A stretch of 47,022 nt of DNA. It comes from Bacteroidota bacterium (GTDB lineage: Bacteria; Bacteroidota; Rhodothermia; Rhodothermales; UBA10348). The position numbers were made by a program, and so were the translations under genes. The DNA is taken from NCBI GenBank assembly GCA_022567305.1, contig JADFHF010000028.1, positions 1 through 47,022 of the forward strand, read 5' to 3'. The notes below the pieces were generated by a model. It saw nothing but the letters and a program-made list of their open reading frames with translations, made no database searches and was not told the origin of the DNA. This document shows positions 11,118 to 18,586 of the stretch, piece after piece. Every line of letters starts with the position of its first letter. Within the stretch, counting starts at the first letter, position 1.

Positions 11118-12587
11118 CTATCGAACGTCGTAGCGAATAAAAGCTACAAACGCTCCGGCGAACGCAAGAACCGTGAAGACCGACAACAAACCAAAGTCGA
11201 TCATGGAAGGTTTGAGAACCGCACTCAGTGACTCCACTGGATCCACGAACTTCGGCATGTCAGATGTATCGACCGCTTCCCCACCGCTTCCGAGAAACAT
11301 AATCATTCGCCCACCCGACGCTGACTGTCGGGCTTGACGTCGCCGTTCCGCTCTCTCCTCTTCCTGCTTGGTCTTCAAGTAGCTTGAAAACGATTCGCGA
11401 TACGCAAACATCTGATCCTCATACCGCTTCTTGATCGACGTATTCGTGCCGCCGAGATTCATCGCCGTGAGCTGATAGGCCGATGAGGGAGAAAATCGTG
11501 AAAGTATAAATGCCAGGCGTTCCTGTTCCAATTTCGCATTCCGAAGGTCTTCGTTCAATTTACGATTGAACTCTGTTACACTCAGCTCCATCTCTTCTCG
11601 CACGTCACGATCCTCCTGGTCCCACTCGTCTTTGTTGGCGTCGTAGTACGCCCGCCTTTCCTCTCTGGAGGCCCCTTCAAGTGCAGAAAAACGATTTTTC
11701 CAGGCCTCTTGTCGCCATTCTCGAATCAGCTGTTGCTGGTCCGTGCGGAATCGATCCTTCTGACTCTCGTTCTCCGCCACCGTTGGAACGGAAACCAGTT
11801 GACCTGCTGCCATGGTGGCGCCTCTCGGAACAATCAGAACCAGCATGATCCATACGACAAGGAGCACCAGGAATGAAACAGATGACCTTTTGGTAAGGGA
11901 AGAAACCAGGAGACTGAGGGCAATAAAGAATGTGAAGTAAAGAATCGAGACACCGATTAAGGCAACCAGCTTGGCCCAGTCATCCCCGGTCATAGGTACG
12001 TTGAGCACCATGAGCAACAGGACGCCGATCAGAATCGGAATCAACAAAGGAATCGTGAGTCCCAACCACGATCCCACGAATTTCGCAAATAAATACTGGC
12101 CTCTGGGAATCGCATTGGATAGCGCCAGTTTCAAAGTACCCCTCTCGCGCTCACCGTTTATCGCATCGAACGTGAATAATATTGCGAAAAGAGATAAAAC
12201 CACCTGGACGATGAACGTGAAATCGACGAACCGAAAGACGGCGAACAGAGGCGATTCCGAGTACAAACTTTGTTCCAGCTTGACGTCTTCGCGACTGCTG
12301 ATTTTGGAGAGTCGACCCACATCGAAACTCACACCAGATACAAAAATCTGCATCGGAGACGGTTTCCTATAGACCGTATTGTCCATCGCGAAAAATGAGG
12401 TAGCTTCAGCGAGAGACTGATCGACGAGCTGAGTTGCCGTTTCGTACTGATCGACGGACGCGTGGTACTCCTGGATGCCGATGAACACGCTCAGCAGGAT
12501 CAAGAGCGAACAAACGCCAAACGTTGCCACAAACTTTGGACTCTGCAGAATGGCCTTCAGTTCTTTCTCTACCAGGATCGTGAACAT
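11118..12587 (-). CDS. ABC-2 type permease, DUF3526-like (copy A)
   Basis: This 489-residue multi-pass membrane protein is a permease of the ABC-2 superfamily. It starts MFTILVEKELK, a cytoplasmic entry followed by a first transmembrane segment. A long extracytoplasmic loop separates it from the conserved cytoplasmic motif FDAINGERERGTLKLAL near residue 150 and further transmembrane helices. A large, charged, coiled-coil-prone loop follows at about 260-390, before the last helix and the ending GAFVAFIRYDVR. I chose ATG 12585-12587 because it aligns with the start of the upstream paralogue; a TTG 13 codons earlier would overlap that gene's stop. It is the last of the ABC genes in a tight minus-strand run. 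The substrate is unknown. Confidence 0.88.
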   Translation of the reverse strand: MFTILVEKELKAILQSPKFVATFGVCSLLILLSVFIGIQEYHASVDQYETATQLVDQSLAEATSFFAMDNTVYRKPSPMQIFVSGVSFDVGRLSKISSREDVKLEQSLYSESPLFAVFRFVDFTFIVQVVLSLFAILFTFDAINGERERGTLKLALSNAIPRGQYLFAKFVGSWLGLTIPLLIPILIGVLLLMVLNVPMTGDDWAKLVALIGVSILYFTFFIALSLLVSSLTKRSSVSFLVLLVVWIMLVLIVPRGATMAAGQLVSVPTVAENESQKDRFRTDQQQLIREWRQEAWKNRFSALEGASREERRAYYDANKDEWDQEDRDVREEMELSVTEFNRKLNEDLRNAKLEQERLAFILSRFSPSSAYQLTAMNLGGTNTSIKKRYEDQMFAYRESFSSYLKTKQEEERAERRRQARQSASGGRMIMFLGSGGEAVDTSDMPKFVDPVESLSAVLKPSMIDFGLLSVFTVLAFAGAFVAFIRYDVR

Positions 12588-12622
12588 GGAATCGTTGGGT
12601 TGATTAAAAAAAAGCAGGCGGC

Positions 12623-14035
12623 TCAACGCACGTCATACTTCAGAAAGGCCACGAAGGCACCGGCGAAAAAGACAATGTTGAACAGCAACAGAAGGCCCAG
12701 ATCCGGTAGAGACGCACCTATGGCATCCGACACATCTGGTGGTTCGTATGTGAATGCAGGCAGTTCCCGTAGATCAATCTCTTCAGGTTCTTCTACCTCA
12801 TCGTCGCCATGCCTCATGAATCGAAATCCTTGAGTGTCGGCGTTTTTGCTCTGCATGAATTGAGCGAAGGCGGCCTGGTATGAATTCGCGGCATCCATGT
12901 ACGATGACCTTAGCGCTAGTGAAGTTGATGCTAAGTCGGCAGCCGCGAGAGAAAAAGACGCAGTTGGAGATATTCGAGCCAAAGCCAATGCAAATTTTTG
13001 TCGGCGAGCGGCTTTGTTATTTCGCTGTTCGTTCAACTGCTCCGTCAAGACGAGCATTTTGGCGTCAAAGTCGTCCTGCTGCTGCCCCATGAATTCTTGC
13101 ATATCGGCCATAAACTGAGCGTGATCATCGTTATTTCTATTTTCCTGAATAAACTCCTGCATCCCATTCATTCTCTCGCTGAACAGTTGCCTGGAGTATT
13201 TGCTCTTTTCGTAGTCGATCTGATCAACACTCGGCACATCGACAGCCTGACCAGAGATCAGAACGGAAGCCCGTGGAATGATGAGTACCATAAAAATCCA
13301 AACGACGAGCAGCATCAAGAACGAAGACGAAGAATGCTGCGTCATCGCCGAGATAAAAACCGAAAGAGTAAGAAATACACCGAAATAGAGCACTCCAGCA
13401 AAAATGACCATCGCCAATCGTATCCATGAATCGCCATCCATCGGAACGCCTAGCAGTGGAAGCATCACGCATCCGATCAAAATCGGAATCATGAGCGGTA
13501 CAACCAGTGCCAAAAAAGACCCAACTAGCTTAGCCAAAACGTATTGATCCCTGGGGACCGGATTGGCAAAGGAGAGTGCCAGGGTGCCTCTCTCTTTCTC
13601 GCCATTGATGGCATCGTATCCAAAAAGGATGGCGAACAAGGAAAGAACAATCGTGAAAATGAACTCGAGATCCAGAAATCGAAACACAGCAAAAATAGGA
13701 TCCTCATTGAATCGACTATCCTCAGCTCGAAGTTCACCGCGAGACTCTATATCGATCGTACGACCGATGTCATTCGATATCCCCGATACCAGCGCCGCCA
13801 GTGGCTGCGGCGGCAAGAAAATCCTATGATCGATCTCTCCCCAATCGGTGAGTCCTTCCATCTGTCGCATGTTCTCCACGACAGCGCCTTCATACTCCTG
13901 TCGGCTGACGTCATAGTTCCGGGCCCCTACATAAAAGGCAAGCAAGATCAACACGGCGCAGACGCCAAACGTTACGGCGAATTTCGTCGTCCCGACGATT
14001 TCCTTGAGCTCCTTGTCCAGCAAAAGTTTAAACAT
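12623..14035 (-). CDS. ABC-2 type permease, DUF3526-like (copy B)
   Basis: This 470-residue paralogue of the neighbouring permease starts MFKLLLDKELKEI and has the same plan: a first transmembrane segment, an extracytoplasmic loop, the motif YDAINGEKERGTLALSFA, several transmembrane helices, a polar helical loop with Gln/Asp-rich segments at about 260-400, a last helix, and the ending GAFVAFLKYDVR. It lies 29 bp downstream of the ATPase gene and 35 bp upstream of copy A, strongly suggesting cotranscription and a heteromeric transporter. ABC-2 permeases of this kind usually export or handle unknown substrates; none can be named from sequence. Confidence 0.88.
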   Translation of the reverse strand: MFKLLLDKELKEIVGTTKFAVTFGVCAVLILLAFYVGARNYDVSRQEYEGAVVENMRQMEGLTDWGEIDHRIFLPPQPLAALVSGISNDIGRTIDIESRGELRAEDSRFNEDPIFAVFRFLDLEFIFTIVLSLFAILFGYDAINGEKERGTLALSFANPVPRDQYVLAKLVGSFLALVVPLMIPILIGCVMLPLLGVPMDGDSWIRLAMVIFAGVLYFGVFLTLSVFISAMTQHSSSSFLMLLVVWIFMVLIIPRASVLISGQAVDVPSVDQIDYEKSKYSRQLFSERMNGMQEFIQENRNNDDHAQFMADMQEFMGQQQDDFDAKMLVLTEQLNEQRNNKAARRQKFALALARISPTASFSLAAADLASTSLALRSSYMDAANSYQAAFAQFMQSKNADTQGFRFMRHGDDEVEEPEEIDLRELPAFTYEPPDVSDAIGASLPDLGLLLLFNIVFFAGAFVAFLKYDVR

Positions 14036-14064
14036 GATTCGCGCTTGTTTTTAAGCGTTCTACC

Positions 14065-14883
14065 TTAAGATATCGCAGGTTCTTCTTCGTGTGGTACGGA
14101 TTCAGGCGTCTTCTCCATGTATCCAGCCATGTACTGAACGTAGAGTTTTTCGAGATCCTCTCCGCGAAGTTCCTCGGCGGATCTTTGCATCACCAGCTCA
14201 CCCAGGTTCATAATTCCAATCGTATCTGCGACATCCTTGGCCCGAAAGATATCGTGGGTAGACATAAGAATCGCTTTCTGCTCGCTCCTGAGATCCTCGA
14301 GTAGCTTGATAAATTCGCGTCCGGCTTTGGGATCCAGTCCGGCGGTAGGTTCATCCAGAAGAATCGCTGGAGCATCTTTAAGAATCGCGATCGCGATTCC
14401 ACATTTCTGACGCATCCCTTTTGAGTAGCCCTTGAGCCTCCGCGAATGCGCAACCTCTTCCAAACCCACTCGCATCAGAACATCTCGATAATCATCTTTC
14501 GAATAGTCTTTCTTTCCTCCCAGCTTGGCAAAGAAATCCAGATTCTGAATAGCCGTGAAGTTTGGGTACAACATCACGTTCTCAGAAACAAATGCAAGCC
14601 GTTCTTTCGCTTTTAAAGGCTCCTTGTGAGTGACAATTCCGTCTACTCGCGCTTCGCCCTCTGTCGGCTCAATGAAATTGAGGAATAGATTGATGGTTGT
14701 TGTTTTACCTGCCCCGTTTCCACCCAACATCGCATAGATCTCACCTGGATGAACGGTAAACGAGACCTTGTTCAGCCCAAGCGTGCCGTCTTCGTACACC
14801 TTGGTCAGACCATCCGCTTCGAGGAGCGGTGCTTCATTCCGGGCTGCTGACGTTCCCTCTTCCATGCGATTCGACTCTTCCAT
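14065..14883 (-). CDS. ABC transporter ATP-binding protein
   Basis: This 272-residue cytoplasmic ATPase has Walker A GGNGAGKTT at 54-62 (a glycine replaces the usual proline), signature-like YSKGMRQK at 153-160, Walker B ILLDEP at about 174-179 followed by TAGLDP, and an H-loop STHD. It matches the CcmA/NatA-like group that pairs with ABC-2 permeases. I chose ATG 14881-14883 because the ABC domain begins soon after; an earlier in-frame start would run into the upstream gene. It is the only ATPase in the locus, so it probably powers all three permeases. The last 25 residues are rich in Glu and Pro. Confidence 0.93.
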   Translation of the reverse strand: MEESNRMEEGTSAARNEAPLLEADGLTKVYEDGTLGLNKVSFTVHPGEIYAMLGGNGAGKTTTINLFLNFIEPTEGEARVDGIVTHKEPLKAKERLAFVSENVMLYPNFTAIQNLDFFAKLGGKKDYSKDDYRDVLMRVGLEEVAHSRRLKGYSKGMRQKCGIAIAILKDAPAILLDEPTAGLDPKAGREFIKLLEDLRSEQKAILMSTHDIFRAKDVADTIGIMNLGELVMQRSAEELRGEDLEKLYVQYMAGYMEKTPESVPHEEEPAIS

Positions 14884-14929
14884 ATTAAAAGTACGTACGT
14901 GAGTTCTAACTATGACCAAGCGTCGCTTC

Positions 14930-16444
14930 CTATCGCCGCGACAATCGTATTCCAAATACGACGATACCGATGACCAGACCGATGATGAGAATGATAATGA
15001 ACAGCGTTCCCAGGATGTTGGCTTCTAGTGCCACTTCTACAGTGATCGTTTTGTCCTCTCCTCGAATTGGAAGGTCATCGGAGAGCGACGTCGTGCGAAC
15101 ACGGACCTCATATCGACCGGGTGAGACATCCGCAGGTGGGGTAAAAAATAGACTAATCGTTCGCTCTTCACTGATGCGGAGTGATTCGATCACTTCCGGT
15201 TCTATTCTTTCCGTCCAGTTCAGGGGTGGATCCACTTCGATGCGGATATTGTCTAAACGCCTGGAACCTTCGTTTACGATTTCGAGGGAGACTTCAACGG
15301 TCTCGTCTGCATTGATCGTGTGAAATAGTTGCTGCAAACGAACGAGAATTTCTCCGACGCCCCGGGGTACCAGTTCGAGGGGGGTGTACCCGACACCCAG
15401 ATCATCGAGTTCCGTTGTGGTCAAAGTCCTCTCGCTGACGTCTCCAATTTCATCAGAACGTTCACGCGGAATGGCCACCGCGTAGAACAGAATGGGCTCG
15501 TCCATATTGACGTTTTGCGTAGGTCGATCCGGAAGGAATACCCTGAGTGCAATCTGTCTGGTATTGACTCCTTCCCGAAACTGAAATTGACTCAAGCGAT
15601 TCCCTGACGCCGTGTCCACGAAATATCGATTGATTTCAGACGGCAGATTCACCGCCTCCAACTTAAACGTGTTGGATTCACCACTGAAGAGCTCAATAGA
15701 CATCGCAAAGTCCGTCGTTGCACCCAGCTCTACCTCCTGGGAGAATTGTTCTGACTGTATCGCGGCCTTATTTACTGAGGCATCTTTTTGAAGAAAGACT
15801 TTGAGACGTCGCTCAGAACCGTGTCCGTATATAATATTGACCGAAACGGCGTCCACGTCTTGGAGGAGTGCGAATTCCAGTACTTGTGGCTTACCATAAT
15901 GAAGCTCTTCAACTTTCGCTTCGTACGGAAGTCCAATAATTGAACCCTCGTCGTTTAGGAGCGACACATAGACATCGTGTACCACGTCCGGCTGGAGACT
16001 TCTGAAAATCTCGTCTTCGAAGAATTCAAGCTGAGAGAATTCCGCACCTCCCGCAGCCGCATTTCCGATCTGTAAGCGGACTAGCTTTCGCGTTCCCGTA
16101 CCCTGGTACTTGATGGCCGAAAGAATCGTCACGTATTGCTGCTCAAAAATGACAGCTAGAAGCGACTGCTGGTAGTTGACCTCTGCGTCTGAATAGGCGA
16201 CTCGAGCCCGATCATAGTCCGTTTTAGGGATCAACCGCCGATCATATAGCCCCTTCTGACGCTCGTATTCTGACTTTGAAACCTCATACGCTTCCTTTGC
16301 GCGCTTCAAACCAAGTAATGTGTATTGATCATCCCGTTGATTAAAGAAAGTGCTACTCTGCGCAACGAGACCGTCTGGCGTAACCAACCCGATGAAAAGG
16401 GCGGCAAACAAAAGACTCCTAAATTTCAATATCGACTGTAACAT
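14930..16444 (-). CDS. Exported membrane-anchored protein: adaptor-like coiled coil plus NEW3-type domain
   Basis: The 504-residue protein has an N-terminal signal peptide ending near AQSS, then a long amphipathic helical region at about 38-95 (YERQKGLYDRRLIPKTDYDR) that resembles one arm of the coiled-coil hairpin of HlyD-type adaptors or TolC. A beta-rich middle of unknown fold follows. Near 380-470 lies a NEW3-like domain (alpha-galactosidase-associated, COG1470-like), with VEVSLEIVNEGSRRLDNI and SPGRYEVRVRTTS. One transmembrane helix at about 478-498 and a short RLSRR tail close the protein. Most of it is therefore outside the cytoplasm, anchored at the C-terminus. It sits 39 bp after permease C and 46 bp before the ATPase, so it is probably a periplasmic part of the same transporter. 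Confidence 0.75.
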   Translation of the reverse strand: MLQSILKFRSLLFAALFIGLVTPDGLVAQSSTFFNQRDDQYTLLGLKRAKEAYEVSKSEYERQKGLYDRRLIPKTDYDRARVAYSDAEVNYQQSLLAVIFEQQYVTILSAIKYQGTGTRKLVRLQIGNAAAGGAEFSQLEFFEDEIFRSLQPDVVHDVYVSLLNDEGSIIGLPYEAKVEELHYGKPQVLEFALLQDVDAVSVNIIYGHGSERRLKVFLQKDASVNKAAIQSEQFSQEVELGATTDFAMSIELFSGESNTFKLEAVNLPSEINRYFVDTASGNRLSQFQFREGVNTRQIALRVFLPDRPTQNVNMDEPILFYAVAIPRERSDEIGDVSERTLTTTELDDLGVGYTPLELVPRGVGEILVRLQQLFHTINADETVEVSLEIVNEGSRRLDNIRIEVDPPLNWTERIEPEVIESLRISEERTISLFFTPPADVSPGRYEVRVRTTSLSDDLPIRGEDKTITVEVALEANILGTLFIIILIIGLVIGIVVFGIRLSRR

Positions 16445-16483
16445 GTTTGCAACGTGGGAGGTGGAGCGGATACGATCAGCGTG

Positions 16484-17923
16484 TCATCGTACATCGTATC
16501 TTAAAAAAGCTACGTAGGATACCAGAAATGGGATAAAAAGGTAGGCAAGGAGACTCACCATTGCCCAAACATTTGATCTAAGTACGTTTGAGAGCTGGGG
16601 TTCCCTGACTTCGAAACTGGGCGGTGCGTCCCAAGGGGGTGGATCTTCGGCACCGAGATTGCCCATCATTACCATGCCTTCCATTCCGACTTCGAGACGA
16701 TTACTTCGCTGATGCGCAAAAATCGTCTGGTCGATGATCTGATAGTGAGCGTGAACGGCATTTCGATACCCTTCATAGGCCAGATCCCGCGTGCCGGCCT
16801 CATTAGATACAAAAAACGTTAGCGCAGAAGCGGGCGAAAGCAGTGATATCGCCCGACTTAGCCCTCTTTGGCTTTCTTTCTGGCGCATGAATTCCAAATC
16901 GATCTCACGAACCCTGTCCCGCTGCCTACGGTCGTATGATTGTGCGATCTCCAGGTATTCCGTCCGAAACTGACGGGATTCTGGTGTTTCACGTCGAACG
17001 AATTCGAATGCACCGCGGATGGAATCGTTTCCACTCAGGCACATGTAGAGCTCGCCCGCCTTTTCTCTCATCTCTTGTGACAAATCGTCAACAATTCCCG
17101 CCTTCTCTATGCGAATAGATTCCTGGGAGGCCGTCGGGAGAGCGATGGCTGCAATTTTTTCGCCAGCCTTCGGGATAACCAACTGTAGCACAACCCACAT
17201 CACCAGAAGAACGACGATGGCCGTACGACTCGAGTGGCAAAAGGTCGACACCATGAGACCCATCGCGAAAAACCCGGCAAGGAAGATCGACGACATCGCG
17301 AACATGAACCCAATTCTAGAAACAGCCTCAGCCTCGAAGAATCGACTGTCATACGCCCCGAGTACGAGATATAACAGTAGCGACCCGACAAGAAACGTGA
17401 ACCACAGAACCGTATATCCACCGAGCAGCTTGCCAAAGAGTATCGAGTCTCGAGGCACCTGATTTGCGAGAACGGCTCTCAGCGTACCTCGCTCCTTTTC
17501 CCCGGAAATCATATCGAATGCGAGTAACACAGCCAGTAAGCTGAACACGACCTGAACAAGAAAAAGAAAATCAAAGCTCCCAAACGTGGATAATGTGGAG
17601 AAATCCTGGGCTTCGATATTCCCGGCCGTTGTGGCATTCGCATCTCTGGAGAACGCGAAATAGATCGGCATATAGGGTTCGGTACCCCGTGCGAGAGCCG
17701 AAAGAACTACGGGAGCCCGATACGCCCTCAGATTCGAGGAAGATGGATCTTCCGCCTGATACTCTGCGAGTTGACGATCAAAAGCTGCTTTTCGAGCCTC
17801 ATAATATTCGTAATTGATGAAGGCACTCGGCGGCATCAGGACCATGCTGAACACGGCGATTGCAACAAATCGCTGATTCAGAAGACTGTCCAGAATCTCC
17901 TTGCGGACTAAATGGAAAAGCAT
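16484..17923 (-). CDS. ABC-2 type permease, DUF3526-like (copy C)
   Basis: This 479-residue protein is the most divergent of the three permeases. It starts MLFHLVRKEILDSLLNQRF, has the shared motif FDMISGEKERGTLRAVLANQ near residue 130, several transmembrane helices, a large extracytoplasmic or polar helical region with conserved Arg/Glu content, and ends SYVAFLRYDVR like its two relatives. It is the first gene of the ABC run and lies 141 bp downstream of a small secreted protein gene. Loss of an ABC domain in the protein itself means it needs the separate ATPase encoded three genes on. Confidence 0.87.
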   Translation of the reverse strand: MLFHLVRKEILDSLLNQRFVAIAVFSMVLMPPSAFINYEYYEARKAAFDRQLAEYQAEDPSSSNLRAYRAPVVLSALARGTEPYMPIYFAFSRDANATTAGNIEAQDFSTLSTFGSFDFLFLVQVVFSLLAVLLAFDMISGEKERGTLRAVLANQVPRDSILFGKLLGGYTVLWFTFLVGSLLLYLVLGAYDSRFFEAEAVSRIGFMFAMSSIFLAGFFAMGLMVSTFCHSSRTAIVVLLVMWVVLQLVIPKAGEKIAAIALPTASQESIRIEKAGIVDDLSQEMREKAGELYMCLSGNDSIRGAFEFVRRETPESRQFRTEYLEIAQSYDRRQRDRVREIDLEFMRQKESQRGLSRAISLLSPASALTFFVSNEAGTRDLAYEGYRNAVHAHYQIIDQTIFAHQRSNRLEVGMEGMVMMGNLGAEDPPPWDAPPSFEVREPQLSNVLRSNVWAMVSLLAYLFIPFLVSYVAFLRYDVR

Positions 17924-18064
17924 CGCGATTCCCTGGTGATGGAGATGCTGTTGTATTCCATTCCCGAATGCCTCCGCTCACTCACGTTCTGTTTGCTTGA
18001 GGGCGGTTCGGCTACTCCGCGCTACAAACGTACTGACCCGGCGAATATTGTGCTTCGCGAAGAT

Positions 18065-18586
18065 CTAGCTGTTGACCGCGTGATAATCGGCGACAAGCCG
18101 TTCTACGAGAACGCCGAGATCCTGTAATATTGCGTCAGCGGCTGAAGAATCAATGACTCCGACTTTCCCCGCTCCCCAGGCCACCGCATAAGTTGTAAAA
18201 CCAGGATCCGACAGTTTGTTCATCAAAAAGAAGACCTCCAGTCTTATTGAATACAACGTGGAGGTTTCGAGATCGATCGACGAAACGATATCTATATGCA
18301 AGACGGGAGAATCCTCGAGCAGGAGCCAGTCTGTCTCATCTAGAACGGGAATCCCACCATTTCTGAGGCCCATGGTTACCGCAGACAGAACATCTTCCTT
18401 CTGTAAACCGGTGAAAGTCAGTTCATCGTCCAGATCCCCGCCCATAACGTAAACGCCTTCCAGCCCTCTGAGTGCGTCCATCTCATCAACAAAGCCCTGA
18501 GCCAACAACGACCCAGAGGAAAGCAGTACGCAGACTGAAAAGACCGTTAGAATACAGGCAAAGCGAGTTCGATTCTGCATCCTCAT
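18065..18586 (-). CDS. Secreted protein of unknown function
   Basis: From ATG 18584-18586 (a second ATG lies two codons on), the 173-residue product has a clear signal peptide (RTRFACILTVFSVCVLL, cleavage near LLAQG). The mature part is about 145 residues, acidic and mixed alpha/beta, with a pattern LEGVYVMGGDLDDELTFTGL near its start and alternating hydrophobic strands. I do not recognise a family. The longer in-frame extension to 18700 would bury the signal peptide and is disfavoured. It lies 141 bp upstream of permease C on the same strand, so it may belong to the ABC transcription unit. Confidence 0.7.
   Translation of the reverse strand: MRMQNRTRFACILTVFSVCVLLSSGSLLAQGFVDEMDALRGLEGVYVMGGDLDDELTFTGLQKEDVLSAVTMGLRNGGIPVLDETDWLLLEDSPVLHIDIVSSIDLETSTLYSIRLEVFFLMNKLSDPGFTTYAVAWGAGKVGVIDSSAADAILQDLGVLVERLVADYHAVNS

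Follow-up and report, generated by a model that had tools for sequence, protein, structure and literature searches.

A lone third permease, and motorless permeases in relatives, suggest one motor for several pumps in an ABC-2 transporter family

The window analysed here is the entire 47,022-base contig JADFHF010000028.1, one of 115 contigs in the genome of a bacterium of the order Rhodothermales (Bacteroidota). It carries a single tight run of six minus-strand open reading frames (ORFs), which encode, in the direction of transcription, a secreted protein, an ATP-binding cassette (ABC) permease of the ABC-2 type termed C, a protein with a NEW3 domain, an ABC ATPase and two further permeases, B and A (Table 1). 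The occurrence of three paralogous permeases beside one ATPase and one periplasmic protein, as proposed in the initial annotation, was confirmed from the ORFs and their Pfam matches, and the same holds for the GE(R/K)ERGTL coupling motif and the YDVR ending common to A, B and C. The lone third permease, together with further motorless permeases in related genomes, suggests that one motor may serve several pumps.

Table 1. Genes of the transporter locus, listed in the direction of transcription
Feature	Position	Strand	Remarks
Secreted protein, small, no known family	ATG 18586 to 18065	-	upstream of permease C
Permease C, 479 residues, extra permease	16484..17923	-	ABC2_membrane_2 124 bits; NosY match Z 26.4; separate clade
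NEW3 protein, 504 residues	14930..16444	-	NPCBM_assoc/NEW3 49 bits at residues 378-451
ABC ATPase	14065..14955	-	ABC_tran 99.6 bits; PDB relatives are the ATPase (nucleotide-binding) domains of ABCA proteins, and NosF
Permease B, 470 residues, core pair	12623..14035	-	ABC2_membrane_2 119 bits; DUF3526 26.2; B clade
Permease A, core pair	11118..12626	-	ABC2_membrane_2 111 bits; DUF3526 26.8; A clade

For two of the genes the longest ORF begins with TTG (position 14955 for the ATPase and 12626 for permease A), while the likely starts are the ATG codons at 14883 and 12587, respectively. With these starts the gaps from C to A are 39 nt (C to NEW3), 46 nt (NEW3 to ATPase), 29 nt (ATPase to B) and 35 nt (B to A), in agreement with the range of 29 to 46 given earlier; the secreted protein lies 141 nt from C. 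Across the locus, promoter-like sites are near chance (5, versus 6.6 in shuffled sequences), as are terminator-like sites (11 versus 7.9, standard deviation 2.8). Promoters or terminators separating the genes had been named beforehand as evidence that would refute a common unit, and none was found beyond chance. An operon split by such elements was thus rejected, and a single transcript is plausible for the gene run.

All three permeases pass the cut-off of 27.2 bits for the Pfam family ABC2_membrane_2 (PF12679). Their earlier description as DUF3526-like holds for A and B, which lie above the cut-off of 25 for that family (PF12040), but not for C, which scores 20.2. Pairwise identity amounts to 38% between A and B, 29% between C and A, and 24% between C and B. 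Two additional PF12679 genes reside on other contigs of the same genome, each with a nearby ATPase-like match (34%). Among the permeases, C alone was modelled (predicted local distance difference test, pLDDT, 87), and the model superimposes on NosY at 2.2 Å over 245 residues. In this model, residues of approximately 267 to 440 form an insertion absent from NosY, and this stretch of about 170 residues is probably periplasmic. The NEW3 protein (pLDDT 84; predicted template-modelling score, pTM, 0.54) comprises an N-terminal signal or transmembrane segment, a two-helix hairpin, beta-sandwich domains that include NEW3, and a C-terminal transmembrane helix. Its hairpin exhibits weak similarity to HlyD/CzcB-type adaptors. 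The protein remains below the cut-off for full adaptors of the HlyD/resistance-nodulation-division type, since the hairpin stretch alone matches (28.5 of 319.3 bits, TIGR00999), and a fold search with the whole model returned many beta-sandwich proteins at low template-modelling scores, with no functional lead. From its membership of the ABC-2 family it would follow that the transporter exports or extrudes its substrate.

The distribution of the genes reveals which of them form a stable unit. In a scan of named genome contigs, a related NEW3 protein was present at 39 loci, whose record titles place them in Rhodothermales, Balneolaceae, Zixibacteria, Calditrichota, KSB1, Acidobacteriota and others. 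The ATPase, B and A come after NEW3 in nearly all of these loci where the contig is long enough, L056 being broken. When named contigs and whole genomes are combined, the order NEW3-ATPase-B-A is complete in 45 of 61 NEW3 loci, a count that leaves out L020, L022 to L025, L041, L042 and L055, which are the same records as genome loci, as well as the partial match L057. Seven of the 16 incomplete loci are cut by contig ends (L021, L029, L038, L043, L044, L048 and L050), and L056 is broken near such an end. Four others result from the choice of an ORF on the opposite strand (L039, L046, L047 and L145); the core genes of L039, L046 and L047 are recovered by tblastn, and the genome of L145 has two permease matches. 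The remaining four (L090, L091, L120 and L146) are real exceptions. At L146:5887-11212 (genome G203), a divergent unit has the gene order ATPase, permease, permease, NEW3. NEW3 was detected in 23 of the 244 genomes of the class and in 23 of the 296 sampled genomes of the phylum, with one match each at 1e-15; the two samples overlap. Given the conservation of the NEW3-ATPase-B-A order (45 of 61 loci), this transporter family ordinarily combines one ATPase with two unlike permeases. The oddity of three permeases, as first perceived, thus shrinks to permease C, which alone is extra to the standard pair of A and B.

A phylogenetic tree of 82 permeases, taken from chosen loci and not from all, resolves the B rows of the NEW3 family into one clade (100/98) and the A rows into another (94/99, not starred). 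The C rows form a third clade, which is joined by its closest relatives from outside the order, the single permeases of genomes G283 and G075 (100/98), and an equal three-way paralogy of A, B and C was rejected by the tree. In G283 and G075 the unit consists of a C-type permease, an ATPase and a NEW3 protein, only one permease being found in each with C as the query at 1e-20, and the ATPase is 55 to 57% identical to that of the core. A homodimer is the simplest reading for C, because the C-type permease stands alone with an ATPase and NEW3 in these two genomes, and C thus probably acts in this form. A heterodimer of C with either A or B, served by the same ATPase in place of a C homodimer, would agree with the position of C in one run with A and B and with their common fold, coupling motif and tail. 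Yet the C-type protein is the sole permease of the family in G283 and G075, and A and B are strictly paired in loci that lack C, so that we consider such a heterodimer unlikely.

Within the order, 10 of 114 genomes have NEW3, and the same ten have the core-type ATPase (E 1e-80), each in a single copy; these are referred to here as core genomes. Permease C is present in six of them, namely those of the window, G005 (broken), G419, G420 (fragment), G421 and G031, and it was recognised in none of the 104 non-core genomes, an assignment which is a matter of judgement. Weaker matches (25 to 29%) were obtained in six other genomes. The rows of two of these (G006 and G461) fall outside the C clade, two (G412 and G244) have an ATPase of 49 to 50% identity about 1 kb away on the same contig, and the last two (G032 and G423) were not placed in the tree. 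The co-occurrence of C and the core yields a Fisher value of 8e-8, not corrected for shared descent. Adjacency of C and NEW3 was seen in three genomes only: that of the window, G005, where C is broken, and G420, where the contig end leaves a C-terminal fragment; in G419 both C and NEW3 lie at contig ends and may be neighbours too. G031, G421 and G419 have full-length copies of C, with identities of 48 to 55%. The copy of G421, complete and 54% identical, differs from that of the window by 0.38, 0.25 and 0.62 at the first, second and third codon positions, and judging from this excess of third-position changes, C is constrained as a protein. The locus of G005 (L016:6434-13185) is decaying: C is a remnant, and one in-frame stop each occurs in core A and in the match to the secreted protein, while B, the ATPase and NEW3 remain open; such single stops could be errors of the draft genome. 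The remnant indicates that C can be lost, and the second permease pair in G005 might take over.

No second core-type ATPase was found at E 1e-80 in any of the 114 genomes, and the second ATPases that G031 and G029 yield at 1e-60 are part of other DUF3526-type loci. Core genomes, with one core-type ATPase each, can thus hold more permease sets than matching ATPases. In G421, no ATPase-like ORF is present within the 2.7 kb between C and the contig start or the 9.8 kb downstream, and the core sits on a different contig. The C gene of G031 is likewise separate from the core, on a contig that ends about 137 bases after it. Both G031 and G422 carry a B-A pair that lacks an adjoining ATPase and is preceded by a double-PDZ protein, and G005 and G006 have ATPase-less pairs close to contig ends; according to the tree, these pairs have two separate origins. 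Sets of a double-PDZ protein and an ATPase-less B-A pair, away from the core, are located at L089:6503-10298 and L189:6206-10028. In G422, a TonB-receptor-like gene begins 36 nt beyond NEW3-ATPase and shares 60% identity with the gene after A in G031. Since this gene stands directly after NEW3-ATPase, the core of G422 lacks B and A, having lost them while NEW3-ATPase was kept; the relocated pair constitutes the sole permease matches of the C search. TonB-receptor-like and DUF4249 genes follow in both L120:931-5696 (G422) and L017:8320-16969 (G031). Overall, seven of the ten core genomes carry an extra or relocated pair or some form of C, be it whole, remnant or fragment; in the other three (G414, G418 and G029) the core pair comprises the only permeases of the NEW3 clade. 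Homologues in which a permease has its own ATPase, regarded in the initial annotation as contrary to sharing, do exist in the distant G283 and G075, but no genome of the order has more than one core-type ATPase, and sharing is therefore not refuted for the window.

The comparative genomic evidence favours the reading that one NosF-like ATPase, together with the NEW3 protein, energises interchangeable permease sets, with C as an alternative permease, to which we assign a probability of about 0.5. Of the earlier proposal of three alternative complexes on one ATPase, the sharing is thereby retained but not the number of sets, as A and B make up one pair. In the proposed mechanism, an ATPase homodimer and the membrane-anchored NEW3/hairpin protein as its periplasmic partner would form a fixed energiser. 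A and B would be the original heterodimer on this unit, whereas C, probably as a homodimer and without an ATPase of its own, would dock on this ATPase and NEW3 protein as well and thereby make up a second transporter with a different channel. Where C is unlinked, the shared ATPase would be used in trans. The homodimeric state of C, its use of the shared ATPase and the existence of two transporters are what we infer from gene content and sequence. A broader version, whereby the unit is a modular ABC-2 energiser and genomes add, lose and relocate A/B pairs and C homodimers that plug in in trans, is offered tentatively, at somewhat short of even odds.

Several observations weigh against the sharing of one motor. 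The divergence of C is faster than that of A, B and NEW3, as would be expected of a dispensable gene, and C is a remnant in G005. Both points, and the absence of C from four of the ten core genomes, would also fit a C that is redundant, decaying or an accessory without a part in transport, the working machine being A/B with the ATPase and NEW3; the full-length copies in G031, G421 and G419, with their clear third-position excess, make this improbable. G006 has a B-A pair, yet neither NEW3 nor a core-type ATPase was found in this genome, which is 78% complete. The evidence from G005, G006, G419, G420 and the C of G031 is cut by contig ends. Moreover, a first look yields 32 to 65 other ABC ATPase candidates per genome that could serve C, and C might work with one of these, encoded elsewhere, as its unlinked position in G421 and G031 would allow. 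That possibility is distinctly unlikely, as every genome in which C was recognised has the NEW3-ATPase core, and the ATPase partnered with the C-type permease in G283 and G075 is 55 to 57% identical to that of the core. A single transporter with all three permeases, as a trimer or mixed set, is suggested by their genes lying in one run but was rejected as extremely improbable, given that most loci carry A and B only, that C-type permeases are found alone in G283 and G075, and that NosDFY entries contain two NosY permease chains.

The permease termini may point to a shared partner. Every NEW3-clade permease with an intact end terminates in D-x-R (69 of 69, orphans included), 64 of them in the longer form F-x-x-Y/F-D-x-R, whereas none of ten permeases from five other DUF3526-type loci does so; the count omits core A of G005 (stop) and the A permeases of G420 and G418 (contig ends). 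This tail follows the last transmembrane helix and is expected on the cytoplasmic side, where contact with the ATPase or with the basic NEW3 tail would be possible. As a further caution regarding a shared motor, the pattern may reflect plain common ancestry. The coupling helix is not useful as a marker of sharing, as a similar one occurs in other DUF3526-type loci.

The genes that surround the unit vary. A double-PDZ secreted protein is encoded directly upstream of NEW3 in 37 of the 61 loci (for four of which no upstream gene can be seen), and 31 loci have a divergent histidine kinase with an OmpR-type response regulator (examples of this neighbourhood are L051:4661-7935, L122:9880-15105 and L018:8360-12100). 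Such neighbours hint at the sensing of envelope stress or toxic compounds at those loci. Within the order of the window, G029 alone keeps this neighbourhood, so that the lineage of the window has probably lost it; the genome of the window gave no match to the double-PDZ protein at 1e-5. The small secreted protein upstream of C has no Pfam or NCBIfam match and occurs in three of the 114 genomes (G000, G005 and G421), all with C or a C remnant; its match adjoins the remnant in G005, and in G421 it is an unlinked match of 28%. Its membership of the transporter unit is thus uncertain. On the other side of the run, permease A is followed in the window by a pyruvate kinase and a large repeat-rich protein, and in G005 the start of the gene after A resembles this pyruvate kinase and the next gene the repeat-rich protein. 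Loci L019, L021 and L057, filed under Gammaproteobacteria or Proteobacteria, have NEW3 genes 69 to 78% identical to that of the window, and the permeases of L019 nest with those of the window in the tree; these loci represent either mis-binned contigs or transfer.

A bacterial pump of this kind normally has one motor, one periplasmic partner and a matched channel pair, and ABC exporters are usually regarded as fixed sets of ATPase and permeases. The NosDFY system (PDB 7o0y and others) shares with the locus the NosY fold, as seen in the C model, a NosF-type ATPase, one periplasmic partner and two permease chains. The window differs in having two unlike core permeases plus a third, in the putative periplasmic insertion of C, and in encoding, instead of a NosD-type protein, the NEW3/hairpin protein with its C-terminal transmembrane helix. 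LanFEG transporters, which confer lantibiotic protection, likewise combine one ATPase with two unlike ABC-2 permeases. The ATPase of the window reaches 134.1 bits on the corresponding TIGR03740, below the cut-off of 309.75, and the unit differs by its NEW3 protein and longer permeases. Matches to GldA and GldF are far below the cut-offs (TIGR03522, 129.3 of 402.6 for the ATPase; TIGR03518, at most 28.0 of 288.5 for the permeases). In energy-coupling factor (ECF) importers, one energiser module serves several membrane components (S-components). MsmK is described as energising multiple ABC transporters (PMC8546688). In both cases one energiser and several membrane components recall the arrangement proposed here, but those systems are importers, whereas the permeases of the window belong to the ABC-2 type, with a protein on the periplasmic side as part of the fixed unit. 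In the broader, modular version, permease sets would plug in like the S-components of ECF importers, but in an export-type transporter. The parts are thus of known kinds, and ATPase sharing is already known for importers. A literature search, outside which most subscription journals lay, returned no description of the NEW3-ATPase-B-A unit and none of ATPase sharing in ABC-2 transporters.

The conserved unit of NEW3, ATPase and two permeases, often accompanied by the double-PDZ protein and the divergent two-component system, spans several phyla. If the sharing of one motor is true, it would be wrong to write off solitary permease genes as broken transporters, and naturally occurring sets, A/B and C among them, would show by what rules an ATPase recognises a permease.

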